Below, piece after piece: positions 33,917 to 57,736 of a stretch of 64,000 nt of DNA. The notes beneath the pieces were generated by a model. That model saw only the letters and a program-made list of their open reading frames with translations. It searched no databases and was not told the origin of the DNA. Numbering within the stretch: the first letter of the stretch is position 1; each line of letters starts with the position of its first letter. This DNA comes from Synechococcus sp. CCY 0621 (GTDB lineage Bacteria; Cyanobacteriota; Cyanobacteriia; PCC-6307; Cyanobiaceae): positions 124,001 through 188,000 of the forward strand of contig NZ_JAFKRH010000010.1 of NCBI RefSeq assembly GCF_019038465.1, given 5' to 3'. Both the position numbers and the translations under genes were made by a program.

Positions 33917-33969
33917 GGATGGCGGTGGATGCCGGTCCAGTGTGGCTGCTCAGCGGGTGTGGCCGGGCC

Positions 33970-35210: not shown

Positions 35211-35295
35211 GGCGGGGCGGCGGGAGATCGGGGCCGGTGGACCCGCTTGGGATCTTCGCAAACCCCAAGCCGGCGCATGCGGTTTGCGTGCGTGC

Positions 35296-40045: not shown

Positions 40046-42655
40046 GTGACTTTCTCCGCAGTTCATAACGTGACAACGACGGGTGTTCCTCCTGAGACCT
40101 TTCCGGGTGGAACGCCGCGCCCGCTGTCTCTGCCGCCGTCGACGGGTCAGGGCCCTATCCAGAGCCTCCCCTACGACCCCACGCTCCAGAGTCCCCTGAA
40201 TCCCACGGGCGACGGACAGTCAGGCTCTGGTGGCCTGGGAGGACTGGTGCGGACCGTCAAGCGCCGCCAATCCATTTTCCTGATCACCTTTGCCGCGGTG
40301 ACGGGTGTATTGGCGATCAATACCCTGCGGCAACGCATTTTCGATCCCGTCTACCAGGGCGGGTTCCAGATGCAGATCAGTAATCCCTTCGACACCCCCT
40401 CCAGCGGCAGCGGCGGCGGTTCGGTCGAAAGCGTCGCCCGTAGTGAAATCGAGACGGACATCCCAAGCCTCATCGTCCTGATGCGCAGCCCGTTGCTGCT
40501 GGGGCCGGTTGCCCAGCGACAGGGCATACCTCTTGGGGCCCTCCAGGGCAGCTTGTCCATCAACCAAGAATCGGCAAGCGTCGCTAATGTTCTGAATGTC
40601 TCTTTGCGCTGGCCCGATCCAGCCAAAGGCAAAGTGATTCTCCGTCAGCTTGCGAAGGATTACACCGCCTTTTCCCTCACCCAGCGCCAAGCCGCTGTCA
40701 ATTCAGGTGTCCGATTCCTGGATGAGCAGGCCCCGGCAATCGAGGCCCGGGTTCAGAAGCTCTCCCTGGAGATGCTCAAGTTCCGCGAGCGCAATAATTT
40801 CGTCGACCCTGCCACGGCCGCTGGCCAGATCCTCGGAGCCCGCGAAGGGCTTGTCAACCAGTTGCGCACCCTCCAGAACGAGCAGGTGCAGCTCGACAGC
40901 CAACTGAAATCGATTCAAACCGGCAAACTCCAGTTCACCCCCAGTGGAGCTCCCACGGCCCTTGAGCAACTGGGTCGTAACAGTGTTCTCGTGCCGGATC
41001 GGCCCTCCACTGGAGTAGATGCGGCGCGCGGCGCCGCCACTCCCCTTGATCTGCTCAACCAGTTCGAGCAGGAACTGGCCACCGCCAAAGGTACGTTCAA
41101 GGACAACTCCCCCATTGTTAAGTCCCTGTTGGCGAGACGCGACCAGCTGCTGCCAGTGGTCCAGCGCCAGGCTGCCGATGCCGTGAAGGCCAGGCTGCTT
41201 TCGAACGTGGCCCAGCAAGATGAACTCAACCGCCAGATCCTTCTTCTCAGCGAGAACTTCCGGAACAATCCGCAGAAGATGTCGGAGTTCGAGAACATCA
41301 ACCAGCGTCTGGCCATTGCCAGGGAGCAGTACTCCTCCTACATCCAGGCCAGGGAGCGTTACCGGCTGGAGATGGCCCGTTCGATCACACCCTGGGAAGT
41401 GATTGGCCCCCCCGATTTCGGCGGCAGTCCAGTAGAGCCCGACATTCAGCGCAATCTCCTGAGGGCGATCATGATCGGCCTGCTGGCCGGGCTCGGTGCA
41501 GCCATTCTCAGGGAGAAGACGGACAACGTCTTCCATACCCCCATGGAGGTGGAAAAGGAGCTCCAGCTGCCCGTGTTGGGTCTGATTCCTTACCTTCCCC
41601 TGGAGCCTGGTGTCGACATCGCCACCAGCATCTCCAAGATGTCCTCCAGCGAGCGCTTTGCGATCAAGGAGTCCCTGCGCAGCCTGTTCACCACCTTCCG
41701 CCTGCTTCGCGCCGACAACAACATTCGCATGGTGGGGATCACGTCCTCTACCCAGGGAGAGGGAAAGTCCACGGCTGTGGCTGTCTTCGCCCGGACCCTT
41801 GCTGATCTTGGCTTGAAGGTGCTTGTGGTTGATTCCGACATGCGTCTCCCCATGCAGGCCAGATATCTGGGCGCCGAACAGGGTGAAGGCCTGTCCACAC
41901 TGTTGTCCGATTCAGCTCGGACGCCCACGGAATTCATTCATTCCATCGTCGAAAACTTGGATGTTCTCCCGGCCGGTCCGAAGCCACCAGATCCTGCCAA
42001 GCTTTTGAACTCCAGCCGCTGTAAGGAGATCATGGAAGAGATTCGTGCCCTTCCTGGCTACGACATCATTGTTGTTGACGCCCCTCCCTGCCTGATGCAG
42101 GCTGATCCGATCCTGCTCGGAGAGAAGCTGGACGGCATCCTTTTCCTTGTGGGTCTGGGCAAGGTGAGTCGTGAGCTCGCGCCCCAGGCCAGCCGCCGGA
42201 TCAAGGCCTCGGGGGTTGATGTTTTGGGCATCATCTGCAATCAGGTGAACTTCCCGAGTCGCCTCAACGATTATGGCTACGAATACGGCTATTACTACCA
42301 CTATGCCTATGCATCGGCTTCTGGGTATGCCAAGAGTGCTGGCGACTCCTCCACAGGTGGTTTTGGCAGTTACGTCCAGCGCTATCGCGACAGCTACATG
42401 AAGGGTGCAACCACCAACGCCGCGATCAGCTCTCGCTACAACGATGGAGAGTCAGACGTCAAGACCTACTTCCGCGATGAGGATGGCCAAGCCTCCGAAA
42501 CCACCGCGTCCAACGGCGGCAACCTCACTGGCATGACCCCCCGCAGCTCCTTGCCTTCCGCCGAAAGGGTCCCATCCCGTCGACATCGCCAAGCCAGCGA
42601 GTCTGGAGGCGGTCCCATCGACTGGCTGCGCAGGCGCTTTGGCAACAGGGGCTGA
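40046..42655 (+). CDS. Wzc-like polysaccharide co-polymerase / tyrosine autokinase
   Basis: An 869-residue inner-membrane protein controlling chain length and export. It has an N-terminal cytoplasmic tail, a first transmembrane segment near residue 75, a large periplasmic Wzz domain with coiled coil (about 190-420), a second transmembrane segment near 475, then a BY-kinase: Walker A TSSTQGEGKST, Walker A' VLVVDSDMRLP and Walker B DIIVVDAPP. A Tyr cluster (YGYEYGYYYHYAYA, about 748-761) is the likely autophosphorylation site, unusually followed by another 100 residues. The start may be GTG 40046 or the GTG at 40070; a TATCAT at 40036-40041 would favour the later one. Confidence 0.88.
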   Translation: MTFSAVHNVTTTGVPPETFPGGTPRPLSLPPSTGQGPIQSLPYDPTLQSPLNPTGDGQSGSGGLGGLVRTVKRRQSIFLITFAAVTGVLAINTLRQRIFDPVYQGGFQMQISNPFDTPSSGSGGGSVESVARSEIETDIPSLIVLMRSPLLLGPVAQRQGIPLGALQGSLSINQESASVANVLNVSLRWPDPAKGKVILRQLAKDYTAFSLTQRQAAVNSGVRFLDEQAPAIEARVQKLSLEMLKFRERNNFVDPATAAGQILGAREGLVNQLRTLQNEQVQLDSQLKSIQTGKLQFTPSGAPTALEQLGRNSVLVPDRPSTGVDAARGAATPLDLLNQFEQELATAKGTFKDNSPIVKSLLARRDQLLPVVQRQAADAVKARLLSNVAQQDELNRQILLLSENFRNNPQKMSEFENINQRLAIAREQYSSYIQARERYRLEMARSITPWEVIGPPDFGGSPVEPDIQRNLLRAIMIGLLAGLGAAILREKTDNVFHTPMEVEKELQLPVLGLIPYLPLEPGVDIATSISKMSSSERFAIKESLRSLFTTFRLLRADNNIRMVGITSSTQGEGKSTAVAVFARTLADLGLKVLVVDSDMRLPMQARYLGAEQGEGLSTLLSDSARTPTEFIHSIVENLDVLPAGPKPPDPAKLLNSSRCKEIMEEIRALPGYDIIVVDAPPCLMQADPILLGEKLDGILFLVGLGKVSRELAPQASRRIKASGVDVLGIICNQVNFPSRLNDYGYEYGYYYHYAYASASGYAKSAGDSSTGGFGSYVQRYRDSYMKGATTNAAISSRYNDGESDVKTYFRDEDGQASETTASNGGNLTGMTPRSSLPSAERVPSRRHRQASESGGGPIDWLRRRFGNRG

Positions 42656-43377: not shown

Positions 43378-44052
43378 TTAGCTCTGCCGGGATCGCAGCA
43401 CTGGTTCGACCAGGTCGAGAATCTGCTTCCAGAGGCGTTCAGAGGGTGGCTCCCCTTTCGGCCCACGCAAACTGATCAGAGTGCAGGCATACGTGCGATT
43501 GGGCTGAAGCCCGATCACCCGCTCGAGAGAGGCGGCCTTGCCGCTGGCCAGACGGTCGGCAATCGCGGAGAGTTGTTCCCGTGTCACGCCAAAAGCATCG
43601 TTAAGGTCAGGGTCTGCCAGGAGGCAGGTCTGCAGAACCGGACGATCTTCGGCCAGGCCCATCGCTGTCGGCACCGGTGATTCGCTCAGACGGCGCTGAG
43701 TCAGCTTCAGGCTGGGCTGATCCATGCCCATGCTGCTCGCTTGAAAGTTGAACCGCTGGCGCACGGAGCCCTGCATCAAGGTGAGCTCGAAACCTCCACG
43801 CAGGGGCAGCCGCACGGGGACGGACGTCGCGAGTTCGAGGCTGCGCTTCGCAGGCCAGGGGTTGGCTGGCGAGCGCCGCTCCGATCGGGAGAGCAGCCCC
43901 GCCCCACCCAGTCGAGCCTCCAGCTGCTCAGCCGGGAGGGGGTCGGAGGCCGTTGAGGGCCAGCGTGGCATCACGATGGCCTGGGTGGCGAGCAGTGCCG
44001 CCACAGTGGCAAGTGTGCCGTACCACTTCACCAGGAGTGGAGGGGTGATCAC
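43378..44052 (-). CDS. Cyanoexosortase-associated protein
   Basis: A 224-residue protein with one N-terminal membrane helix (about 8-27) and a periplasmic domain with GGFELTLMQGSVRQRFNFQ and a conserved CLLADP stretch. Proteins of this layout directly follow cyanoexosortase genes and are called exosortase system-associated. The GTG start at 44052 overlaps the end of the full-length exosortase frame by GTGA, so the two were translated as a pair. Its function is unknown; membrane anchoring and an accessory role are inferred. Confidence 0.72.
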   Translation of the reverse strand: MITPPLLVKWYGTLATVAALLATQAIVMPRWPSTASDPLPAEQLEARLGGAGLLSRSERRSPANPWPAKRSLELATSVPVRLPLRGGFELTLMQGSVRQRFNFQASSMGMDQPSLKLTQRRLSESPVPTAMGLAEDRPVLQTCLLADPDLNDAFGVTREQLSAIADRLASGKAASLERVIGLQPNRTYACTLISLRGPKGEPPSERLWKQILDLVEPVLRSRQS

Positions 44053-44987
44053 GTTGCCTCTCCCTGCGATGGCGGCGAGGGGAGGGGTGGTAGTTCCCTC
44101 TCCAGCAACCGCATGTAGACCATGCCGAAGATCAGAACGGCGACTCCGGAGAAGACCAGAGATCCAGTGCTGTCATGGAAGAAATCAAACTACCAGCTTC
44201 CCTTGGAGTGACCATTGCCGGCAAAGATGGCCAGCAGAGCGATGCGTAAGGTGTTGCAGATCAGCCCGATCAGCGGAGCCGCCAGAAACATCAGGCAGCG
44301 ACTACCCCAGGAGCGAATCGGAAAGGCCAACAGGAAGATCACTCCCACGCAGAGGATCTGGGCCATCAGATCGAGGCCGTTGCAGGGGCCAAGCACCTGC
44401 ACGCCGCCACCAGGGAGCAGCACGCTGCGGGAATTCACGACCACGTCTAATCCCAGGATGCTGAGCCAGATGCCGGACAATCGGGCGGTGAGCAGGCTGA
44501 GGGGGGCTTCCGGCAGAATTCGCATCAACAGGGCGAAGCCCGGGAGCAGCATCAGGCAGAGCAGGGGATCGCGGAAGCGGCCAAGCCTGCCGGGCTTCTC
44601 GGCCATCAGCCCCAGGGCAAGGCCGCCGATCGGAGCAAGGGCGAACAACAGCCCGTCCCAGTGAACGATCACGGCCGATCGGGTCAGGACCCAGAGGAGT
44701 AGCAGAGTGCCGAGGATCAACCCCCAGGCGGCAGGCCTGGGATTGAGGTCTTCAAACTGATCCTCCATGCAGATCACTGCACCTCCCCATACCAGTACGG
44801 CGAACACCGTCGTGTGCTCGCTCTGGCTGCTTTGGAAGACGGCGGAGTTCTGGATCGCCACGGCTGCGGCAAGGGCAAGCCAGAGGTTGCGGGGGGTCGG
44901 TGGGGGAATGGCTGGAATGGCCGCCCGCCAAGACGATGGAAGCTTCATCAGAAGCCTGTTGGCAAGACGCACGACAATGTTGCTCAT
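44049..44987 (-). pseudogene. Cyanoexosortase interrupted by an in-frame TAG
   Basis: The gene encodes a membrane transpeptidase of the exosortase/archaeosortase family, which recognises PEP-CTERM-type proteins on their way to the surface. Residues 1-265 contain about seven membrane segments, the active Cys202 in GPCNGLDLM and Arg248 in CNTLRIALL. TAG at 44190-44192 stops translation after SKGSW. The frame then stays open for 46 codons reading FDFFHDSTGSLVFSG and a final membrane helix, and ends in TGA at 44049-44051, overlapping the next start by GTGA. FDFFH supplies the expected catalytic His, so the predicted 265-residue product lacks part of the triad. A TGG (Trp) to TAG change would explain it. 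Sequencing error or stop-codon readthrough are alternatives. It overlaps the CapD-like gene by ATGA at 44984-44987. Confidence 0.85.
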
Positions 44988-46921
44988 CGGGCCATCGCGT
45001 CAACGAGGGAGGCGGTCGGAAGCTCTTCAGATGGATCGTATTCCGGCACCAGTCGGCGCAGCAGTGCACCAGTTGTCACTTCGTCCCAGTTGGCGAGAGC
45101 CTCGTGCAGTTGCTGAATGAGTGGAAACAACTGTTCTGCTTCGCGATGTGGTTCGTTGGCCCGACGGATCAGCGGGTGCTGGGTGGGCTGGTCGTCGGCG
45201 CTGATCAAAAGTTCTTCGTAGAGCTTTTCCCCTGGTCGCAGACCCGTGTACTGAATGGCGATGTCTCCGTCGCTGTTGTGCTCGTCCCGTACCCGTAGGC
45301 CGGATAGTTCGATCATCTGCCTGGCCAGGTCGGCGATCCGGACCGGTTCACCCATGTCGAGCAGGAAAAGATCGCCTCCCATCGCCATGCCGGTGGACTG
45401 GAGCACAAGCTGCACGGCTTCCGGGATGGTCATGAAATAGCGGGTGATGGCCGGATGGGTGACGGTGACAGGTCCCCCCGTTGAGATCTGCTGGTGAAAC
45501 AGGGGGATCACCGAGCCGGATGAGCCGAGCACATTGCCGAACCGAACCATGGACAGAATCGGTCCGCCCGCTTCGATCTCCGCGGCGGCGGCTTGGAGAA
45601 GCAGTTCGCAGATGCGCTTGCTGGCCCCCATGACATTGGTCGGGCGCACGGCCTTGTCGGTGGAGATCAGGGTGAGCCGGCTGACCCCTGTGGCGAGGGC
45701 GGCGGCGATGACGGCCTCGGTGGCGCCGATGTTGTTGGCGATTCCGGCGCAGAGATTGGCCTCCACGAGCGGTACGTGCTTGTAGGCAGCAGCGTGGAAA
45801 ATCGTGTCCACAGCATGCCGGCGGCAGAGCAGGGTGAGGCGACTCGCATCACAGGCATCGCCCAGAACGGCTTGGAGTTCCACCCCGCACGGGTGGGATC
45901 TCAGCTCGCGCTCAATGGCGTAGAGGGCGAACTCATTGCGCTCAACCAGCAGCAGCCGGGAAGCGCCCAACGCCACAACCTGGCGGCAGAGTTCGCTGCC
46001 GATCGAGCCACCCGCTCCTGTCACCATCACCACCTTCCCTTGGACACCAGCCTTCAGCAGCACCGGGTCGGGATTGGAGGGCTCTCGTCCCAGCAGATCT
46101 TCAATCGCCACCGCCTGCAGGTCGGAAACGATCCTCTGGCCACTGGCCATCTGAGCCAATGAGGGAATCGACAGCACCTCGAGCCCCCTGTGGGTGAGCT
46201 GGTCAACAAGCAGCCGCTTGCGACGTCTGGAGATGGCCGGCATGGCAAGCAGGACCTTGGTAACGCCGTGACGCTCGATCAATCGGGGCAGCCTGACGGG
46301 CGTGTGGATTCCCATGTTCTGAAGCGTTCGGCCCTGGATCCCTTCGTCGTCGTCAAGGAATCCGATGATGCGGAAGCGGGGGTCGTTGCGCAGGGCCATC
46401 AGCAGAGCCATCCCGGAGGCCCCGGCCCCGTAAATCAGGGTGGCATCGCCCTGGATGTTGTCGGGATTGTGGTTGTCCCGTTGATCAAGGTGATGGATCA
46501 GGACGTCGCGCAGCACGATTCGGCTGGCGATGGCGCCCCCGGTGAACAGCAACCAGTAGAGAATCCAGAACGAGCGAGGTGGTTGGGCCCCCCCGATCAG
46601 GGTGCTGATCAGCAGCAGGATCAGCACCATCGAGCCTGAGCGGGGCACGAGTCCGTAGAGGGAATGGCTGCCGGCGTAGCGGGTGAGCCCCCGGTACCAA
46701 CCGGAGACCACCAGAACGGGTAGGCCCGTGATCACGGCCAGGGGCAGAAGCAGGATGGTGGATGGCAGGAAACCACTGAGAGACGCGGCATCCGGTAAGC
46801 GCAGAATGAAGGCCCCGAGGTAAGCCGCAATGATCATCAGACCGTCAAAGACGACCAGAAGCAGCCTGCGGGCGAGCAGCTGCTTCTGGACATAGCGAAG
46901 AATGGTGAGCTGGGGAATCAA
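44984..46921 (-). CDS. CapD/WbpM-like nucleotide-sugar 4,6-dehydratase
   Basis: A 645-residue membrane-anchored dehydratase of UDP-sugars. Four N-terminal transmembrane segments (about 18-110) lead to a CoA-binding-like Rossmann domain (GAGASGMALLMAL) and then a short-chain dehydrogenase domain with VTGAGGSIGSELCRQ at about 296 and the catalytic-type segment LISTDKAVRPTNVMGASKR, where Met replaces the Tyr of YxxxK as known in this family. It likely makes a 4-keto-6-deoxy sugar for the polymer. The start is TTG 46921; no strong RBS is seen. It is coupled to the exosortase gene. Confidence 0.9.
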   Translation of the reverse strand: MIPQLTILRYVQKQLLARRLLLVVFDGLMIIAAYLGAFILRLPDAASLSGFLPSTILLLPLAVITGLPVLVVSGWYRGLTRYAGSHSLYGLVPRSGSMVLILLLISTLIGGAQPPRSFWILYWLLFTGGAIASRIVLRDVLIHHLDQRDNHNPDNIQGDATLIYGAGASGMALLMALRNDPRFRIIGFLDDDEGIQGRTLQNMGIHTPVRLPRLIERHGVTKVLLAMPAISRRRKRLLVDQLTHRGLEVLSIPSLAQMASGQRIVSDLQAVAIEDLLGREPSNPDPVLLKAGVQGKVVMVTGAGGSIGSELCRQVVALGASRLLLVERNEFALYAIERELRSHPCGVELQAVLGDACDASRLTLLCRRHAVDTIFHAAAYKHVPLVEANLCAGIANNIGATEAVIAAALATGVSRLTLISTDKAVRPTNVMGASKRICELLLQAAAAEIEAGGPILSMVRFGNVLGSSGSVIPLFHQQISTGGPVTVTHPAITRYFMTIPEAVQLVLQSTGMAMGGDLFLLDMGEPVRIADLARQMIELSGLRVRDEHNSDGDIAIQYTGLRPGEKLYEELLISADDQPTQHPLIRRANEPHREAEQLFPLIQQLHEALANWDEVTTGALLRRLVPEYDPSEELPTASLVDAMAR

Positions 46922-47235
46922 ACGTTCAGATCGCTAAGAATCGATCGATCAGGTAAAGACTTGCTGAAAAGATACCAAGGCAAAGCCAGTACTAAAGGGT
47001 GGCGAGATGTGAAAGCTGCTGAAACAATGATGAAGGGTCGAGCCTGGATCCTTGGACAGTAGTAACGCCTCTGTCTTGTCGCCGCTAGGGCAGTGCATGA
47101 CATCAGGAACAGATGCTAGCAATGAAAGCTGGGATCGAGATTTTCATCCAACATTGATGTGATCAAATGGATGTGATCAAGGAATGGAATGGATCGCCGG
47201 ATGGATTTGAGCCCACTTGGCACTTTACTGCCATT
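46922..47235. other. AT-richer intergenic region of the surface locus
   Basis: This 314-base gap lies upstream of the CapD-like gene and downstream of the MraY/WecA-like gene, both on the minus strand, so it should contain the promoter of the dehydratase-exosortase group. No convincing gene was found; the minus frame at 46918-47103 looks accidental. The only clear structure is a direct repeat at 47156-47180, listed separately. Confidence 0.5.
47156..47180. repeat. Tandem GATGTGATCAA direct repeat
   Basis: GATGTGATCAA occurs at 47156-47166 and again at 47170-47180, 14 bases from start to start. The repeat lies about 235 bases upstream of the dehydratase start and could be a regulator-binding site; the TGTGATCA core is loosely CRP-like. 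It could also be chance. Confidence 0.3.
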
Positions 47236-49112: not shown

Positions 49113-49837
49113 TCGTTGCCATCCAGGCGGCCATCCCACCCCGTCAGTCGCCAGAGGGAGGTGCGCACCTGGTCGCGCCAGAGCCGCAGCTGGGATTCGG
49201 GGCGCAGATCACCGGTTTCGGCGTCAGAGCCCTCCACCTGCCAGCCGGTGCCGGCAAAGACGATCCGGGCGATGGCCAGGGTACGGGCCATGTGGGTTTC
49301 GGCTGTGACGAAGGTGAGCTGTCCCGGTCCGGGTCTGGTCTCCAGCATTCGGGCCAGGGCGGTCACCTGACCGACGGTGTCGCAACCGGCAAGCAAGCGC
49401 AACAGTTTCGAGGTGTCCTGGGGCCAGAGCCTTCGGTTGCGGAGGTGGTTGTAGGTGATGGCCTGGTACTCGGCGTTGCCCTGCAGTACCAGCAACGCAC
49501 CTGGTCGCTCCCGCCAGAGGAGAAGGGCCGACTGGCTCCGCCAGGGATCCTCAATGAAGGCGGTGATCACCTGGGTCCCTTGTCCCGTGCTCGTCTTGGG
49601 CGCCGTGACGGTGTCTCTCCCTGACGTTGGCCCCGGACCCCGGGTCCCCTGCCAGGCGGGAGAGAAAAACCAGGCGACCACGGCCACGATGCCCAACGCC
49701 ATGGCCCCCAGGCGGGCTGTGCGGTTGGCCCAGAAGCGTTGCAGGGGGCTGCCCTGGATGGTCCGGGGGGTGTGTCGCCGCACCCGTTGCCGCTGCCGTT
49801 TCCGGTCTGCCCCGGCCGGCCCGCTCTGCTCTGGCAA
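49103..49837 (-). CDS. DUF218/YdcF-like membrane protein
   Basis: A 244-residue protein with a basic N-terminus, one membrane helix (about 43-62) and a DUF218-like domain: ALLVLQGNAEYQAITYNHLR, LLAGCDTVGQVTALARML and TFVTAETHMARTLAIARIVF. Some family members act in envelope polysaccharide metabolism. The role here is inferred from location between the epimerase-like and GT2 genes. Confidence 0.68.
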   Translation of the reverse strand: MPEQSGPAGADRKRQRQRVRRHTPRTIQGSPLQRFWANRTARLGAMALGIVAVVAWFFSPAWQGTRGPGPTSGRDTVTAPKTSTGQGTQVITAFIEDPWRSQSALLLWRERPGALLVLQGNAEYQAITYNHLRNRRLWPQDTSKLLRLLAGCDTVGQVTALARMLETRPGPGQLTFVTAETHMARTLAIARIVFAGTGWQVEGSDAETGDLRPESQLRLWRDQVRTSLWRLTGWDGRLDGNECL

Positions 49838-49865
49838 GGGAATTGACGCGCAGGCCCAGGTGAGT

Positions 49866-50732
49866 TTATCTGCCCTGTCCCGTTCTCATCCGGGCCTTCC
49901 CCAACACAGGGATCCGACTCCAGAGACGCCTGACATAGCGCAGCAGGAAGGGGATCCACCAGAGCCAGCCGAACGCCCGCCCATAGGCCAGCCGGACCTC
50001 CTGAAGCCGCCGGCGGGTCTGCTGGCCGCTGACACCCGCCTCGCCCATGTGCACCAGCTCCAGATCCAGTGTCCGGCACGAAAGGTCGGCGCAGGCGCTC
50101 AGGCGGAGGAAGTAGTCGAGGTCGGCGGAGAGCCGGAAGGGTGCGGCGAACGGATCGACGCGCCGGCGGGCCCCCGGCCCGATCAGGGTGGCCTGGTGGG
50201 GTGGGGTGGAGCCCAGAAACAGGTTGAGGCGATAGGCCCCACAGCTGGAGAAGGCCGTGCTGCGTCCCAGCCGGACCGCCCCGTCCTTGCCTGGCCCTGC
50301 ATAACGGCCATGGCAAACCACCAGATCGGGTGGGTCGCCCCCTGGCGTGGCCGGCCGGGTCGCCTTGAGCGCCTCCTCGAGTGCGGTGGGGCTGGCTGCC
50401 CAGTCGTCACTGCCCCAGCACAACAGCCAGTGGTCCGCGGGCGCGGCAAGGAAGCCCTGGTTCATGGCGCCAAAAATGCCAGGACACGTCGGCTCCTGGG
50501 GCTGCCAGGTGAAGCGCTTGTCCCGGTGGCAGAGGGCCTCCAGCCAGGCCCGGTGCTCCGCTCGGCTGGGCCCGTCGATGAACAGCACCCGCCAGTGGGG
50601 CCAGCTCTGACGTTGCAGGGAGGTGACCAGCCGGGGCAGCAGCCGGTAGGAATCGAGAGTGGGAACGATCAGGGTGAGCCCTGTGGCGGATCCAGGGGGC
50701 AGCGGGGCGCCTGCGGCAGCGGGGGAGCTCAC
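49866..50732 (-). CDS. Family 2 glycosyltransferase
   Basis: A 288-residue GT-A fold transferase: LTLIVPTLDSYRLLPRLVTS with the nucleotide-sugar Asp in VLFIDGPSRAEHRAW, and the DxD-like LLCWGSDDWAASP. The C-terminus contains a hydrophobic stretch that may touch the membrane. Sugar and acceptor are unknown. The GTG start at 50732 overlaps the carbamoyltransferase stop by GTGA, marking coupled translation. Confidence 0.85.
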   Translation of the reverse strand: MSSPAAAGAPLPPGSATGLTLIVPTLDSYRLLPRLVTSLQRQSWPHWRVLFIDGPSRAEHRAWLEALCHRDKRFTWQPQEPTCPGIFGAMNQGFLAAPADHWLLCWGSDDWAASPTALEEALKATRPATPGGDPPDLVVCHGRYAGPGKDGAVRLGRSTAFSSCGAYRLNLFLGSTPPHQATLIGPGARRRVDPFAAPFRLSADLDYFLRLSACADLSCRTLDLELVHMGEAGVSGQQTRRRLQEVRLAYGRAFGWLWWIPFLLRYVRRLWSRIPVLGKARMRTGQGR

Positions 50733-52480
50733 CCCTGCCGGCGGATCAGCACATCTCCCAGCACCAGGAGGTCCATGCGGGTGCGCAGGAAGCAGTCGAG
50801 GGCCTGGGCGGGGGTGCAGACGATCGGCTCGTTTTCGTTGAACGAGGTGTTGAGCACCATCGGCACGCCGGTCTGGTCGGCGAAGGCGCGGATCAGGCGG
50901 TAGTAGCGGCCATTGTCCGCCGCGTTCACGGTCTGGAGACGGCCGCTGCCGTCCACATGGGTGACAGCTGGGATACGGGCCCGCTGCTCCTCACGGATCG
51001 GATACACCTGCATCATGAAGGGCACCTCCCCATCGAGGCTGAACCAGTCGCCCACCGCTTCCTCCAGCACTGAAGGGGCGAACGGACGGAACGATTCCCT
51101 CCGTTTGATCTTGAGGTTGAGGATGTCCTTCATGTCGGCGCGGCGAGGGTCGCCGAGGATCGAACGGTGCCCCAGGGCCCGCGGTCCCCACTCCATGCGG
51201 CCATCGAACCAGCCGATCACCAGCCCCTCGGCGATCGCCGCCGCCACCTGTTCACAGAGGGCACCTTCCTCCGGTCGCTCCAGGCTGCACTGGGCCTGCT
51301 CCAGGGCCATGCGGGTGTTTGGGCTGGCGAGCAGTTCCTCCACCTCTCCTGGCGCCGGCTGGCTGCCCAGGTAGGCATGGCGCATCGGCGCGCTGCGGGT
51401 CCGTCCCAGGCTGTGCCACACATCCAGGGCGGCGCCGAGGGCGCCCCCGGCGTCACCGGCGGCCGCCTGCACATAAACCCGCTGGAACGGGGTGGCCAGG
51501 GTCAACTTGCCGTTGGCGACCGAGTTGGCACCGCAGCCCCCGGCAATGCAGAGCTGGTCGCTGGGGTGGGTCCGGTGCAGGGCCCGCAACAAGTGGAAGA
51601 AGGCTTCCTCGTACATCGTCTGGGCCGAACGGGCGATGTCCATGTGGTGCTGCTGGAGTGGCTCCTCCGCCTGGCGGGCAGGACCGAGCAGGGCTTCCAG
51701 CTCCGGGCTCCAGTGGCCGCCCACCACCGGGGCCCCATGGCTCCACTGGTGGGGCAGCTTCTGGGTGGCGTGCAGGAAATAGCGCAGATCCAGCCGATAG
51801 GTGCCGTCGGACTGGAGCCTCACGATGCGGCGCATGGCCTCCATCCGGGTGGGCTGGCCATAAGGCGCCAGCCCCATCACCTTGTATTCGTCGCCGTAGT
51901 TGGGGAAGCCCAGGTACTGGGTGATGGCCGTGTAAAAAGCGCCCAGGGAATGGGGGAACCAGATCTGGCCATCGAGGCTGAGCTGGTTGCCCTGGCCATG
52001 GCCCCAGGCGCCGCTCGCGAAGTCGCCGAACCCATCCACCGAGATCACCGCCGCCTCCTGGAAGGGGGAGGCGAAGAAGGCCGAGGCGAGGTGGGCCCGA
52101 TGGTGCTCCACGAAGTGCAGTCGGGCCCCGATCTCCGATCCAGGGAAGGCCAGGGCCAGTTGCTGGGCCAGGCCGGCCCGTTCCCGCTTGTTGCGCCAGC
52201 GGGCGACCAGGAAGCGGGGATCGGGGCGGTGCCCCAGGGTGTACGCCACCTTGCGCCAGCGGTGGGCCCCCGGCTGGGAGTTGATGGCGATGTGGTCGAG
52301 GTCGGCTGGCCCCACGCCGGCATCGGCCAGACACCAGGCGATGGCCTCGGAGGGAAAACCGGCCCAGTGTTTGATGCGGCGAAAGCGCTCCTCTTCTGCC
52401 GCGGCGACGATCACCCCATCCCGGACCAGGGCGGCGGCCGCATCGGCGTGGAAGGCATTGATGCCCAGGATGAGCGTCAT
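50729..52480 (-). CDS. NodU/CmcH-family O-carbamoyltransferase
   Basis: A 583-residue carbamoyltransferase that could add carbamoyl groups to sugar hydroxyls of the polymer. The N-terminal actin-like (Kae1-type) domain has ILGINAFHADAAAAL, the metal-binding HFVEHHRAHLASAF and SVDGFGDFASG, and the C-terminal NodU domain has GRMEWGPRALGHRSIL and VMVLNTSFNENEPIV. The start is ATG 52480, where the family begins; the upstream open frame is not coding. The 52481-52736 gap shows no gene. Confidence 0.9.
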   Translation of the reverse strand: MTLILGINAFHADAAAALVRDGVIVAAAEEERFRRIKHWAGFPSEAIAWCLADAGVGPADLDHIAINSQPGAHRWRKVAYTLGHRPDPRFLVARWRNKRERAGLAQQLALAFPGSEIGARLHFVEHHRAHLASAFFASPFQEAAVISVDGFGDFASGAWGHGQGNQLSLDGQIWFPHSLGAFYTAITQYLGFPNYGDEYKVMGLAPYGQPTRMEAMRRIVRLQSDGTYRLDLRYFLHATQKLPHQWSHGAPVVGGHWSPELEALLGPARQAEEPLQQHHMDIARSAQTMYEEAFFHLLRALHRTHPSDQLCIAGGCGANSVANGKLTLATPFQRVYVQAAAGDAGGALGAALDVWHSLGRTRSAPMRHAYLGSQPAPGEVEELLASPNTRMALEQAQCSLERPEEGALCEQVAAAIAEGLVIGWFDGRMEWGPRALGHRSILGDPRRADMKDILNLKIKRRESFRPFAPSVLEEAVGDWFSLDGEVPFMMQVYPIREEQRARIPAVTHVDGSGRLQTVNAADNGRYYRLIRAFADQTGVPMVLNTSFNENEPIVCTPAQALDCFLRTRMDLLVLGDVLIRRQG

Positions 52481-52736: not shown

Positions 52737-54557
52737 TCACGGGTGTGGGGCCGCGGACAGGCTGACGCCGAGGTGAACCTCCAGCCAGTGCTGCAGCACC
52801 ATCAGGCTCCAGCGCCGGTACCAGGGCGCCAGGTCGATCCCACGGGGGGTCGAGGGCAGCCGCAGTGCCAGGGGTGAGGCCGGGTCGTCGAGCCAGAGCT
52901 GGAACGGAAAACGGAACCCCTGCTTGGGGCGGTTCAGAAACCAGCCGGGCAGCTCCGGCAGGCTGTCCGCCAGCAGCTGCTTGCCATGCGCCAGCCGCAG
53001 GGCGGCGGGGATCGGCGCCAGCCGGCGCTGCAGCTGGGCATCCACCAGGGGCAGGCGCAATTCCAGGCCGGCGGCCATGGCCATCACATCGCTGTCCGGC
53101 AGGAGCTGGTTGCGCAGGTAGCGGGTGCCCTCCAGCCAGGCCACCCCTTCGCGCCCGCCGGGTGCCTCTGCCCCGCCAGCTTCGCCGGTCGCAGGCGTCC
53201 CAGCTGAGGTGCTGAGCCCCCAGTGCGCCAGCAGGCGCTCGATTTCGTTGGGGGAGAACAGTCCCCGGAAACATCCGTAGGCCTGGCCGAGGGACGCGGG
53301 GGCCTCCAGCAACCCCGTGATCCGCTGCAGCCTGGCCCGGCGCCCCTGGGGCAGCCGGTGCAGAATCCAGGCCGCCGGCGGACCGGCCGGTCCGATACGG
53401 CGGCGCCAACGGCATAGCTTCGGCACCATTTGGAAGCTGGGGTAGCCCCCGAACAATTCATCGCCGCCAAGACCGGAGAGGGCCACCTTCAGCCCGTGCT
53501 CCGTGGCCAGCCGGGCCACACACCAGGTGTTGTATCCGTCGATGGAGGGCTGGTCCTGGCTGGCCAGGAAGGCGGGCAGCCACTGACGGACCTGGTCGGC
53601 CGAGAGGTTCAGAGGCGTGTGATGGGCACCGAAGTGGCTGGCGATGCGGTCCGCCGGCCCGGATTCATCGAAGCCGCCGGCCCCTGCCGCCTCGAACCCG
53701 ATGGTGAAGGTGTGCAGGCCCCGGGGGGCCAGCGCCAGCAGGGAGGCGGAGTCGAGTCCGGCGCTGAGGAACAGCCCCACGGGCACATCGCTGACCATGT
53801 GGGCCGCCACGGAGTCCTCGAGCGCCGAGCGGGTGAGGGCCACGGCTTCGGCCGCCGTCATGCCGGTGTCGCGGCTGGCACCGTCGAGGCTCTCCGGCAG
53901 GGCCCCCCAGGGATACACGCTCAGCTCACCCCGGTGCCAGCTGGCGGCGTGGCCGCTGGGCAGGCGCTGAACGCCCTGCACCAGGGTGGCGGGCTCGCTC
54001 ACCGATCCGGTGGCCAGGTAGCGAGCCAGGGACTGGCGATCCAGGTGGGGCCGGTTCGCCTCGGCCGCCAGCAGGGCCCGCAGTTCTGAGGCGAAGGCGA
54101 GCGATCCCTCCGGACCGCTGCGCAGGTAGAGGGGCTTGATGCCATGGGGATCACGGGCGAGCAGGGCGCTGCGCTCGCGGCTGTCGTAGAGGCAGAAGGC
54201 GAACATGCCGCGCAACGCCGCCAGCCCGTCCCGTCCCCAGCGGATCAGCCAGGCCAGCAGCACCTCGGTGTCGCCGCTGCCTCGGAAGTGCTGCCCCTCC
54301 GCTTCCAGCCGGTGGCGCAGCTCGACGTGGTTGTAGATCTCACCGTTGAAGACCAGCTGCCAGCGGCCGCAGGGGGAGGCCATCGGCTGGTGGCCCAGGG
54401 GAGAAAGATCCAGAATCGCCAGGCGCCGGTGGACCAGGCAGGTTTCGGCGTCCTGCCAGACGCCGGCGTCATCGGGTCCCCGGTGGGCGAGGCGGGGGCC
54501 GACCCTGGCGGCGAAGTCGCCCGGTTCCCGGCCCAGCTGGCCCGCGATGCCGCACAT
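52737..54557 (-). CDS. asnB: Asparagine-synthase-like glutamine amidotransferase
   Basis: A 606-residue class II amidotransferase starting MCGIAGQLG, where Cys2 is the glutaminase nucleophile, followed by LAHRGPDDAG and FNGEIYNH. The synthetase half has the PP-loop LFLSAGLDSASLLAL and SGLGGDELFGGYPSF. In polysaccharide clusters such proteins are thought to amidate a sugar acid or related substrate rather than make free asparagine. It precedes GT4 by 5 bases in the same operon. The name asnB reflects family, not a proven substrate. Confidence 0.88.
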   Translation of the reverse strand: MCGIAGQLGREPGDFAARVGPRLAHRGPDDAGVWQDAETCLVHRRLAILDLSPLGHQPMASPCGRWQLVFNGEIYNHVELRHRLEAEGQHFRGSGDTEVLLAWLIRWGRDGLAALRGMFAFCLYDSRERSALLARDPHGIKPLYLRSGPEGSLAFASELRALLAAEANRPHLDRQSLARYLATGSVSEPATLVQGVQRLPSGHAASWHRGELSVYPWGALPESLDGASRDTGMTAAEAVALTRSALEDSVAAHMVSDVPVGLFLSAGLDSASLLALAPRGLHTFTIGFEAAGAGGFDESGPADRIASHFGAHHTPLNLSADQVRQWLPAFLASQDQPSIDGYNTWCVARLATEHGLKVALSGLGGDELFGGYPSFQMVPKLCRWRRRIGPAGPPAAWILHRLPQGRRARLQRITGLLEAPASLGQAYGCFRGLFSPNEIERLLAHWGLSTSAGTPATGEAGGAEAPGGREGVAWLEGTRYLRNQLLPDSDVMAMAAGLELRLPLVDAQLQRRLAPIPAALRLAHGKQLLADSLPELPGWFLNRPKQGFRFPFQLWLDDPASPLALRLPSTPRGIDLAPWYRRWSLMVLQHWLEVHLGVSLSAAPHP

Positions 54558-54562
54558 TGGCT

Positions 54563-55744
54563 CTAGGCCTCCAGGTGGGCCAGAAAGGTGCGGCGGGCCG
54601 CCTCCGGGCTGGCCTGCTCCCGCACCCAGGCCAGGGCCCCGGCGGAGAGGCGCTGGCGGAGGCCGCGATCGGCGCAGATCGCCGCGATCGCCGCCGCCAT
54701 GGCGGTGGGTTCGCTGGCCACCAGCTGGCCCGTGCCGCCGTCAATCACATAATCCTCCGGGCCGCCACAGCGGGTGCTGACGACCGGAACCCCGCAGGCC
54801 ATCGCCTCGAGGGCCGCAATGCAGAGGCCCTCCTGGTGGGAGGGGATCACAAACAGATCCAGTCCCTGCAGCACCTCCGCCAGGGCGCTGGGGCCCAGAC
54901 AGGGGTGGCACTGCACCCGTCCTTCGAGACCCATCGCCGCCAGGGGGCCCTCAAGGCGATGGACGTCCTGTTCGCCCGCCAGCACGAGTTGCACCGGATG
55001 CCCCTGCGCCACGACTCGGGCGACGGCCTCCAGCAGCAGGGTGATCTGCTTGCGGGGGTCGGCGTAGCGGCCAGCGAAACCGATGCGCCAGGGCACAAGC
55101 CGCTCAGGGGCGGGATGGAAGATGGCGGGATTCACCGGCATGCGCATCACCCCGTCCATGGGGCGGTGGGCGATGGAGGCCAGGGCCTTGGCCGTGTAGC
55201 CGCTCAACGCCAGGATGCGCCCCCGGGGGGCCTGGAGCACCTGACGTTCCAGCCGGCGCAGCACCGGGGCGTTGAGGCTCCGGTCAAGCAGCCGCCTCGG
55301 CCTGGAGAAGCGTTTGACGCGGTCGACCCGGTCGTCCTGCCAGGGGGTGGCCACCCAGGCCAGAAAGGGGATCCCCAGCCTGGCGAAGGGGGTGGCGCAG
55401 AGGGGATTGCCGGTGACCGACAGATGCAGATCGCAGCTGGCGATCAGCTGGCGCCAGGCCCGCCTGGGCAGGTAATGGGTGAACTCCAGCTCCGGCAGCC
55501 AGGCCCCCAGGCCATGGCCTTCATGGTCCCCGTAGACGCGGCGTTGCATCTGGCCGGGCCGCCGGCCGCTGGGGACGGCATGGAGGGGAACCGACAGCTT
55601 TGGATGGGTGCTCCAGGGGGCATACCAGGCGAAGACGGGCTCGACGCCGAGCTCCTCCAGCATCCGGGCAACGCAGGCTGTCATGGCGGGAACCCCCCCA
55701 TCCACCGGCTCGATGGTGCTGATCAGGGCCCGCCGCCGGCTCAT
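54563..55744 (-). CDS. Family 4 glycosyltransferase
   Basis: A 393-residue GT-B transferase. The C-terminal domain carries GFAGRYADPRKQITLLLEAV, LFVIPSHQEGLCIAALEAMACGVPVV and the EX7E-like acidic pair. The N-terminus begins with a Gly-rich loop in STIEPVDGGVPAMTACV. Substrate unknown. It is coupled to the epimerase (55741-55744). Confidence 0.88.
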   Translation of the reverse strand: MSRRRALISTIEPVDGGVPAMTACVARMLEELGVEPVFAWYAPWSTHPKLSVPLHAVPSGRRPGQMQRRVYGDHEGHGLGAWLPELEFTHYLPRRAWRQLIASCDLHLSVTGNPLCATPFARLGIPFLAWVATPWQDDRVDRVKRFSRPRRLLDRSLNAPVLRRLERQVLQAPRGRILALSGYTAKALASIAHRPMDGVMRMPVNPAIFHPAPERLVPWRIGFAGRYADPRKQITLLLEAVARVVAQGHPVQLVLAGEQDVHRLEGPLAAMGLEGRVQCHPCLGPSALAEVLQGLDLFVIPSHQEGLCIAALEAMACGVPVVSTRCGGPEDYVIDGGTGQLVASEPTAMAAAIAAICADRGLRQRLSAGALAWVREQASPEAARRTFLAHLEA

Positions 55745-56775
55745 CGCTTAAGCCAGCCGAACAGGTCCCGGTTGTCACGGACCCAGCGGATCAGGTGCCG
55801 TACGCCTGCATCGACGCTGATCTGCGGTGTCCAGCCCAGCTGCTCGGCGGCCTTGGTGACGTCACAGATGAAGACGGGTTGGTCGCCGGGCCGGGACTGG
55901 CCGCTGAGGGGGCTGAGCGTGATCGCCAGCTCTTCTTCGAGGAAGCGCAGCAAATCCCGCAAGCAGAGGGTGTTGACGGGGCCGCCGCCGATGTTGAAGG
56001 CCTGGCCGCTGATCGTGGCGCGGTGGTGCCAGGCGGCTTCATAGGCCCGGGCCAGGTCACGCACGTCGAGCACGTCCCGGGTCTGCCAGCCATCGCCGTA
56101 AAGGGTGATCGGCCGCTCCAGCAGGGCGGCGATGCTGAACCAGGCCACCCATCCCTGGTCCTCGATGCCGAATTGTCGGGTGCCGTAGATGCAGGACTGC
56201 CGGAAGGCGCAGGTGTGCAGGTCGTAGATGCGAGCGTAGTCGATCGTGTACTGATCGGCGACCCCCTTGGAGCAGCCGTAGGGCGAGTGGAAGTCGAGGG
56301 GCTGGCTCTCCGGCACGCCGGCGGGCAGATCCCGGAAGCGATAGCCATGGGCTGTCATCTCCACCGCCACGGTTTCCATACCGCCGTAGACCTTGTTGGT
56401 GGAGGCGTAGAGCACGAAGCTCTCGGGGGAATGGAGCCTGACCGCCTCCATCACGTTGAAGGTGCCGAGGGCGTTGATCTCGAAGTCTTCCCGTGGGTTG
56501 GTGTAGGAGGTGGTCACCGCCACCTGGGCCGCCAGGTGCAGCAGCATCGAGGGGCGCAGGCTGGCCACGACCTCGGCGAGGGCGTCGGCTTGACGGATGT
56601 CGACGCGATGGAAGGCGATGGCGGGATGCTGGCTGAGCAGCCAGCGGAGATTGTCCTCCGTGCCTCGACGGGACAGGTTGTCCAGGATCGTCACCTCCCA
56701 CCCCAGGGAGGCGAAGTGCTGGGCGGCGTTGACACCGATGAAACCGGCGCCGCCGGTGATCAGGATCGAAGGCAT
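55741..56775 (-). CDS. CDP-paratose 2-epimerase-like SDR enzyme
   Basis: A 344-residue extended SDR: ILITGGAGFIGVNAAQHF, STNKVYGGM, catalytic YGCSKGVADQY (Tyr and Lys of YxxxK) and a C-terminal VCDVTKAAEQLGW-type end. The combination NKVYG plus YGCSKGVADQY is typical of CDP-paratose 2-epimerases (RfbE type) that make CDP-tyvelose. No other CDP-dideoxysugar genes are in the window, so a different NDP-sugar substrate is possible. It is coupled to the following GT4 gene. The gap 56776-56932 shows no gene. Confidence 0.88.
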   Translation of the reverse strand: MPSILITGGAGFIGVNAAQHFASLGWEVTILDNLSRRGTEDNLRWLLSQHPAIAFHRVDIRQADALAEVVASLRPSMLLHLAAQVAVTTSYTNPREDFEINALGTFNVMEAVRLHSPESFVLYASTNKVYGGMETVAVEMTAHGYRFRDLPAGVPESQPLDFHSPYGCSKGVADQYTIDYARIYDLHTCAFRQSCIYGTRQFGIEDQGWVAWFSIAALLERPITLYGDGWQTRDVLDVRDLARAYEAAWHHRATISGQAFNIGGGPVNTLCLRDLLRFLEEELAITLSPLSGQSRPGDQPVFICDVTKAAEQLGWTPQISVDAGVRHLIRWVRDNRDLFGWLKR

Positions 56776-56932
56776 CGAGATGGACGAGGCGAGGGAATCG
56801 ACGGGAACAGGGCGGCGGGCGGAGAAGCCTTCCGATCGCGAAGGGTATGGAAGAGCGGCGGAGAGTGGAAGCCTCCGGCGGTCAGGGCGGACCTTAATCC
56901 AACATCCAGATCCTCAGGAATCTTGCGACCTC

Positions 56933-57736
56933 TCATGGTGGTGTTGAGAGCTGGGGGTGGTCCTCCAGAAGCATGAGATGCAGCAGGAGTTCGGCATACA
57001 TGCGTTGCTGGGCATAGGCCCAGCCGCGCCAGCCCTCCAGCAACCCTCCTTTCCAGAGCAGACAGAACAAAAGAGCGGCGAACGGTGCCAGTGGAGTGTG
57101 CTTGCGGAGTCGATCCGCCAGCGATAGCTGGCCGGAGGGAGTGACGCGCAGTTTGGCGGCTTCGATCGCCAGGTAGGTCCCCTGGGAGGTCAACCAGCGC
57201 TGCAAGGGTTTGCGGTCGTCGTGGAAGATCGGCTGCCGCAGGGGTTTGATCGGACCCGGAAGAGCGATGCGGTGCCCATGGCCGTCGTTGTGGTAGCGCC
57301 CCAGTCCCCGGCGGTAGAGGCTGATCCTGGGCGGCAGCATGCCGCTGCGCAGGGGACGGCCGCCGATGCAGTAGCGGAACGGGATGGCGAAGCCTGACAC
57401 TTCTGTGTTGTCCGGATCCCTGATCACCGTCTGGATTTCGCTCGCCAGCGACGGCGGGATCCGGTAGTCCGCATCAAGGCTAAGGACCCAGGGGGTTTCA
57501 ATCTGATCCAGGCCGAAATTGCACTGGTCAGCGAAGTTGTCGAAGGATCGGTGCAGCACCCGTACGGCTGGATTCGTGGCGAGGATCGAGAGGGTGGCGT
57601 CGCTGCTGCCACTGTCAATCACCAGGATCGAGTCCAGCCAGCCCAGGTGATCGAGAGTACGGGCAATATTCGCCTCCTCGTTGTAGGTGAGAATCAGTGC
57701 ACTCAGGAGATTGCCTGGGTTCTCGGACACGCTCAT
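56933..57736 (-). CDS. Family 2 glycosyltransferase (WaaE/KdtX-like)
   Basis: A 267-residue GT2 with ALILTYNEEANIARTLDHL, the donor-site VIDSGSSDATLSI and DxD VLSLDADYRIPPSL. The C-terminal region matches the WaaE-like group that transfers a sugar onto core-type acceptors and has a hydrophobic stretch near residue 230. The start at ATG 57736 overlaps the polymerase gene by ATGA; the frame upstream is open but non-coding. Confidence 0.85.
   Translation of the reverse strand: MSVSENPGNLLSALILTYNEEANIARTLDHLGWLDSILVIDSGSSDATLSILATNPAVRVLHRSFDNFADQCNFGLDQIETPWVLSLDADYRIPPSLASEIQTVIRDPDNTEVSGFAIPFRYCIGGRPLRSGMLPPRISLYRRGLGRYHNDGHGHRIALPGPIKPLRQPIFHDDRKPLQRWLTSQGTYLAIEAAKLRVTPSGQLSLADRLRKHTPLAPFAALLFCLLWKGGLLEGWRGWAYAQQRMYAELLLHLMLLEDHPQLSTPP

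Follow-up and report, generated by a model that had tools for sequence, protein, structure and literature searches.

An in-frame amber codon interrupts the exosortase gene found in the draft genome of Synechococcus sp. CCY 0621

Deletion of the single exosortase (CrtB) of Nostoc punctiforme is reported to abolish motility, biofilm formation and scytonemin, and to alter the abundance of several extracellular PEP-CTERM proteins, with a reduction in five of those detected (PMC12188702). The invariant residues of the family are described as lying in C-x-G, N-x-x-R and H-x-x-x-G motifs (PMC1569441). The loss of biofilm formation and phototaxis in cultured Synechococcus elongatus has been proposed to result from laboratory domestication, in a report that also corrects extensive errors in the published sequence (PMC9239245). 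In the literature matches listed for exosortase, Synechococcus, domestication and orphan PEP-CTERM, no title or abstract opening names a natural nonsense allele of an exosortase.

We describe here an exosortase gene of Synechococcus sp. CCY 0621 whose frame is interrupted by one amber codon. The window is the whole 64,000-nucleotide stretch of DNA that was analysed, and positions are given within it unless another contig or locus is named.

The interrupted frame and its neighbours

The features of the locus are as follows.

44049..44987, minus strand: exosortase gene, full frame (312 codons and a TGA), with the interruption at codon 266; PF09721, CrtA-like
44190..44192, minus strand: in-frame TAG (amber) stop; TGG in the closest relative, G015
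44193..44987, minus strand: stretch that remains an ORF; its 265 residues include the motifs C-x-G (Cys202) and N-x-x-R (Arg248)
44052..44189, minus strand: part past the stop; its 46 residues include the final hydrophobic segment (277-295) and the H-x-x-x-G motif (His271, Gly275)
44175..44177, minus strand: codon of the putative catalytic His271, past the stop; invariant in the 13-row alignment A2
43378..44052, minus strand: partner gene, family unassigned, 224 aa, its start overlapping the exosortase stop (GTGA)
44984..46921, minus strand: upstream overlapping gene of UDP-sugar 4,6-dehydratase type (Polysacc_synt_2)
40046..42655, plus strand: polysaccharide co-polymerase with tyrosine autokinase domain (Wzc-like); TIGR01007 over its cut-off, an exopolysaccharide setting

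An ATG at 44987 opens the exosortase frame, and the TAG at 44190-44192 is the sole stop before the TGA at 44049-44051. The initial annotation held that the frame is intact on either side of the TAG, and this is borne out: there is no other stop, and the frame of relatives continues into the same tail. The gene had also been judged to lie one base from normal, with TGG changed to TAG at codon 266, and TGG is what the closest intact ortholog (G015) carries there. The interrupted frame, including real coding sequence downstream of the TAG, is confirmed.

The truncated ORF is a member of the exosortase family, scoring 82.2 bits on PF09721 against a cut-off of 25.7 and 31.9 bits on TIGR04178 against a cut-off of 23. 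The PF09721 profile match in our genome spans the stop, with 97.2 bits and one TAG inside. Its best subfamily match is TIGR03763 (cyanoexosortase A, CrtA), at 99.7 bits truncated and 123.0 bits read through. Two intact orthologs reach 123.5 and 126.0 bits on this model, also below its curated cut-off of 150. The label 'cyanoexosortase' given initially therefore stands at family level, with CrtA as the best subfamily match, but the NCBIfam cut-off for CrtA is missed even by intact orthologs. The name 'cyanoexosortase A' is approximate for the whole lineage, beyond our own copy.

The motifs here are Cys202-Asn-Gly204, Asn245-x-x-Arg248 and His271-x-x-x-Gly275, all invariant in the 13 rows of alignment A2, which holds our own locus and 12 of 14 loci from relatives, two fragments being left out. 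Assignment of His271 as the putative catalytic residue takes its motif from PMC1569441. The truncated product retains Cys-x-Gly and Asn-x-x-Arg, and His-x-x-x-Gly is absent unless the stop is read through. The last hydrophobic segment, residues 277-295, lies past the stop as well, so the sequence agrees with the earlier prediction that a truncated product would be without the triad His and the last membrane helix. A structure model places a helix at 273-298 with low confidence; at a mean pLDDT of 53.7 it was too uncertain to guide active-site geometry and was dropped, and the active-site triad therefore rests on the sequence motifs. Searching PDB sequences with the exosortase family profile gave no match at E <= 1.

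The partner gene starts at a GTG (44052-44050) that overlaps the exosortase TGA, as the initial annotation had it. An NTGA overlap context is found in 16 of 16 loci; the overlap script chose a different partner start in L009 and L016, and the L009 partner was seen to start at the overlap. From this overlap, translational coupling of exosortase and partner is likely, and hence a polar effect of the stop. No NCBIfam or Pfam model matches the partner at E <= 0.01. There is no clear sign of relaxed constraint in it, because its dN/dS is only slightly higher (0.37 against 0.27-0.35 in seven other pairs, with the mis-assigned L009 left out) and the changes on our own branch (8 synonymous, 8 nonsynonymous) resemble those on the G015 branch (6 and 9). 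In two genomes, G001 and G025 (loci L010 and L008), the partner looks frameshifted and the exosortase frame is open.

The frame in relatives and the age of the stop

Our genus set consists of 42 genomes, our own included, of which a protein search matched 39, or 38 without our own. The protein query ended at residue 265, and the stop site was covered by a separate layout of the loci. The frame is open through the stop site into the H-x-x-x-G tail in all 29 of the relatives' loci examined (of the 38 matching), and the tail past the site has the common form F-x-F-F/W-H-x-x-x-G. A check against sister strains had been proposed; across the 30 loci examined the stop occurs in our own only, and G015 is among the 29 without it. 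Codon 266 in the 15 closest is TGG eight times, CTG six times and TTG once. Searching 20 genomes with PF09721 gave matches in 16 (22 rows, some of which end before the stop site), and our own row alone holds a stop, the one TAG. In the wider family an exosortase match was found in 68 of 400 genomes. The relatives with the locus are recorded as Cyanobium, Synechococcus, Aphanothece, a Synechococcaceae MAG and one 'Microcystis elabens'. G015, the closest genome, matches ours in stretches of 36, 12.5 and 5.6 kb, with DNA identities of 96.6%, 95.6% and 97.1%, respectively.

Measured against G015, the exosortase has the same dN/dS, 0.08, on either side of the stop, the value past it resting on four synonymous and one nonsynonymous differences. 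With G016 as outgroup, our own branch carries 10 synonymous changes and one nonsynonymous change besides the stop, and the G015 branch 13 and 4. If the gene had been unconstrained for 20% of our branch, the chance of at most one replacement among 11 changes would be 0.9-2.1%; at 10% unconstrained it would be 2.8-8.4%, and at 0% 10-38%, the ranges covering the three functional rates tried. These values fit a loss that takes up no more than roughly 10-20% of our branch, which, the numbers being small, is a bound and not a date. An old pseudogene was rejected on the dN/dS of 0.08 on both sides and the 10:1 ratio on our branch. As no decay is seen, the stop is either very young or a base-call error.

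Sorting signals and exosortase number

Public PEP-CTERM models see little in this genus. In our own genome PF07589 has no match and TIGR04155 one weak match at E <= 0.1; the TIGR04155 cut-off is reached in two of the 42 genus genomes and the PF07589 cut-off in one. The nine PF07589 matches in the genus, including the one over the cut-off, were set aside as apparently unrelated, as their tails end differently. Among the TIGR04155 matches that we examined, most of the proteins carry some version of VPGPLPILGAxxAFGFSRKLRRRI at the C-terminus. For this reason a profile, A1, was built from 17 C-terminal tails, one from our own genome and four from G015, which match by construction.

At E <= 0.01, A1 has at least one match in every one of the 42 genomes (2 to 50 each), with 17 in our own and 14 in G015. 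The VPGPLP...SRKLRRRI signal is well formed and no more than 30 residues from the C-terminus in 15 of our 17, so that a search for PEP-CTERM-type substrates, also proposed at the outset, has returned candidates. A strongly hydrophobic N-terminal segment was seen in 13 of the 15 by a crude and generous hydropathy scan that picked the best start and had no control; one of the other two was mis-framed in the scan and one starts outside its locus. Five of our substrates have G015 counterparts with 84-94% identity over most of their length. Judged by sequence, an exosortase and several putatively exported proteins with the tripartite C-terminal signal are encoded in the same genome, as in an exosortase sorting system. 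Degenerate copies of the signal lie at C48:23068-23148 and C25:2367-2444, and the copy on C25 has two intact substrate genes as neighbours. Most proteins with the VPGPLP tail may go unnoticed in routine annotation, as the tail is present in 42 of 42 genus genomes and only 2 of 42 pass the TIGR04155 cut-off.

Our draft genome has one exosortase locus, no second being found by protein search or PF09721. The sister G015 holds a second, divergent exosortase at C1:648045-648824 (L149:10045-10824), which scores 77.1 bits on CrtA. Against the corresponding 20 kb region of our genome, blastn finds no match to the stretch containing it; that stretch is flanked by near-duplicate sequence, with signal-bearing genes nearby at C1:644651, 646578 and 652276. 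Three other genomes, G009, G035 and G041, have 50, 5 and 14 sorting signals though no exosortase was found in them by protein search or TIGR03763. Their completeness is 95, 91 and 84%, so the sequence may be missing; if it is not, the genus has further members in which the substrates have outlasted the enzyme.

Loss of sorting and its alternatives

The best reading, and one we think fairly probable, is that a recent nonsense mutation has made this strain a natural exosortase null. The gene, the only exosortase found, is predicted to encode a multi-pass membrane enzyme that cuts secreted proteins and releases or attaches them. Its predicted substrates are secreted proteins with a C-terminal signal made up of VPGPLP, a hydrophobic stretch and SRKLRRRI. 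A single and very recent base change would have placed an amber codon ahead of the segment that carries the third active-site motif together with the final membrane helix. The truncated protein would then be inactive, the substrates would stay in the inner membrane or be mis-sorted, and adhesion to the surface polysaccharide would be weakened. Translation of the overlapping partner would perhaps fall too, given its probable coupling to the end of the exosortase frame. That one exosortase was found, that substrates are encoded and that the stop occurs in one of 30 loci all agree with a recent null. The two degenerate signals (C48:23068 and C25:2367) do not, as a very recent loss leaves them unexplained; the scan for such remnants covered our own genome.

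Loss of function is the likely reading, and it hangs on one base. If that base is a base-call or assembly error, the gene is intact and the strain has a normal sorting system, which we regard as possible though doubtful. The assembly is a draft in 101 contigs, and the published genome of a cyanobacterial type strain has been found to contain extensive errors (PMC9239245). The equal dN/dS on either side of the stop, and the lack of decay, are what a base-call error would show, and the open frame in all 29 relatives' loci and the retained substrates suit an intact gene too. The surrounding sequence speaks against error. G015 and G016 share 42 conserved ORFs; for 34 of them the window contains a counterpart, and the conserved-ORF test flagged five. 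Four of these are not disrupted genes: the window boundary cuts one, two run antisense to Pfam-matching genes (DUF192, YgbB), and another results from taking the 5' end of a LarB gene too far. That leaves the exosortase, with no other disrupted gene among the 34. Over 36 kb there are seven indels relative to G015, four in multiples of three and three of one base, all of the latter outside the genes called beside them: at 33963, in the gap separating the YgbB gene from that for a tRNA methyltransferase; at 35214, immediately upstream of a CpeS-like gene, which starts with GTG; and at 47000, between 46921 and 47236. The ORFs 49455-50903 and 54557-56044 were set aside as further differences from G015, as by composition they look like non-coding frames. 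With indels and conserved ORFs clean, the region is not generally error-rich; a lone base error is possible. The published precedents point both ways, as laboratory domestication would fit a loss selected in culture and the corrected sequence would fit an error.

Where the stop is taken as real, near-cognate tRNAs might still read it through, by accident or by regulation, and give a working amount of enzyme. The downstream frame is still constrained, the substrates are kept and a second enzyme was not found, as read-through would have it, but we consider it unlikely. A stop as young as the data allow would account for the constraint without any read-through. Neither mark of stop-codon recoding, a conserved in-frame stop or a dedicated tRNA, is seen: the stop is in our genome only among the 30 loci, and ARAGORN read no CUA anticodon at the 46 places where a tRNA search of our genome had matches at E <= 0.01 (42 of them over the cut-off; three weak matches gave no tRNA). 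The single match of a suppressor-tRNA pattern scan was discarded, as ARAGORN finds no tRNA there. TAG ends one substrate gene in our genome and its counterpart in G015, and therefore serves as a terminator. A rough count over 25 hand-picked ORFs of the window gave 22 TGA, 2 TAG and 1 TAA; these include 55795-56976, which has a dN/dS of 1.2 and is probably no gene. A very unlikely extension of the idea makes the amber codon a real and tolerated switch, with trace read-through turning sorting down without its loss, or, more boldly, makes it one allele in a genus that repeatedly loses and regains sorting. The least credible account is a shorter working exosortase of 265 residues, or a 3' part made as a subunit of its own by re-initiation. 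The shorter protein does keep the Cys and Arg motifs, but all 13 A2 rows have His271 and Gly275 and H-x-x-x-G is present in 29 of 29 relatives' loci, and no in-frame ATG, GTG or TTG lies between the stop and His271 from which a subunit could re-initiate.

The gene, the event and all the parts are of known kinds, and what is useful is the setting of one enzyme, about 15 substrates and a close intact relative. If the base is right, a cyanobacterium with one exosortase has become a null for that single gene by nature, and the strain paired with its sister would suit study of the role of exosortase in VPGPLP-type proteins and cell aggregation, in a comparison that the second, divergent enzyme of the sister G015 makes imperfectly clean. 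If the base is wrong, the case is a reminder that one base can cost annotation a whole sorting system.

Compared with known systems, the gene resembles Exosortase/EpsH (PF09721, TIGR04178) in passing both cut-offs and in the C-x-G, N-x-x-R, H-x-x-x-G order of its full frame; unlike that family, our copy is interrupted before H-x-x-x-G. On the narrower TIGR02602 the read-through protein scores 60.3 bits, below the cut-off of 105.55. It resembles CrtA (TIGR03763) as its best subfamily match and in its exopolysaccharide locus, but all scores here are under 150 bits. The candidate substrates are like those of TIGR04155 and PF07589 PEP-CTERM in being predicted exported proteins with a proline motif, a hydrophobic stretch and a basic end, and differ in that the motif is VPGPLP and few genus genomes reach either cut-off. 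The cyanoexosortase B of N. punctiforme, as reported in PMC12188702, is likewise the one exosortase of a cyanobacterium that secretes many proteins bearing a C-terminal signal, and its gene lies in a polysaccharide locus, upstream of a partner gene. It belongs to another subfamily, our read-through protein scoring 41.1 bits on CrtB against a cut-off of 300. Its loss was engineered and the effect measured (PMC12188702), whereas the putative loss described here is known from the genome sequence.
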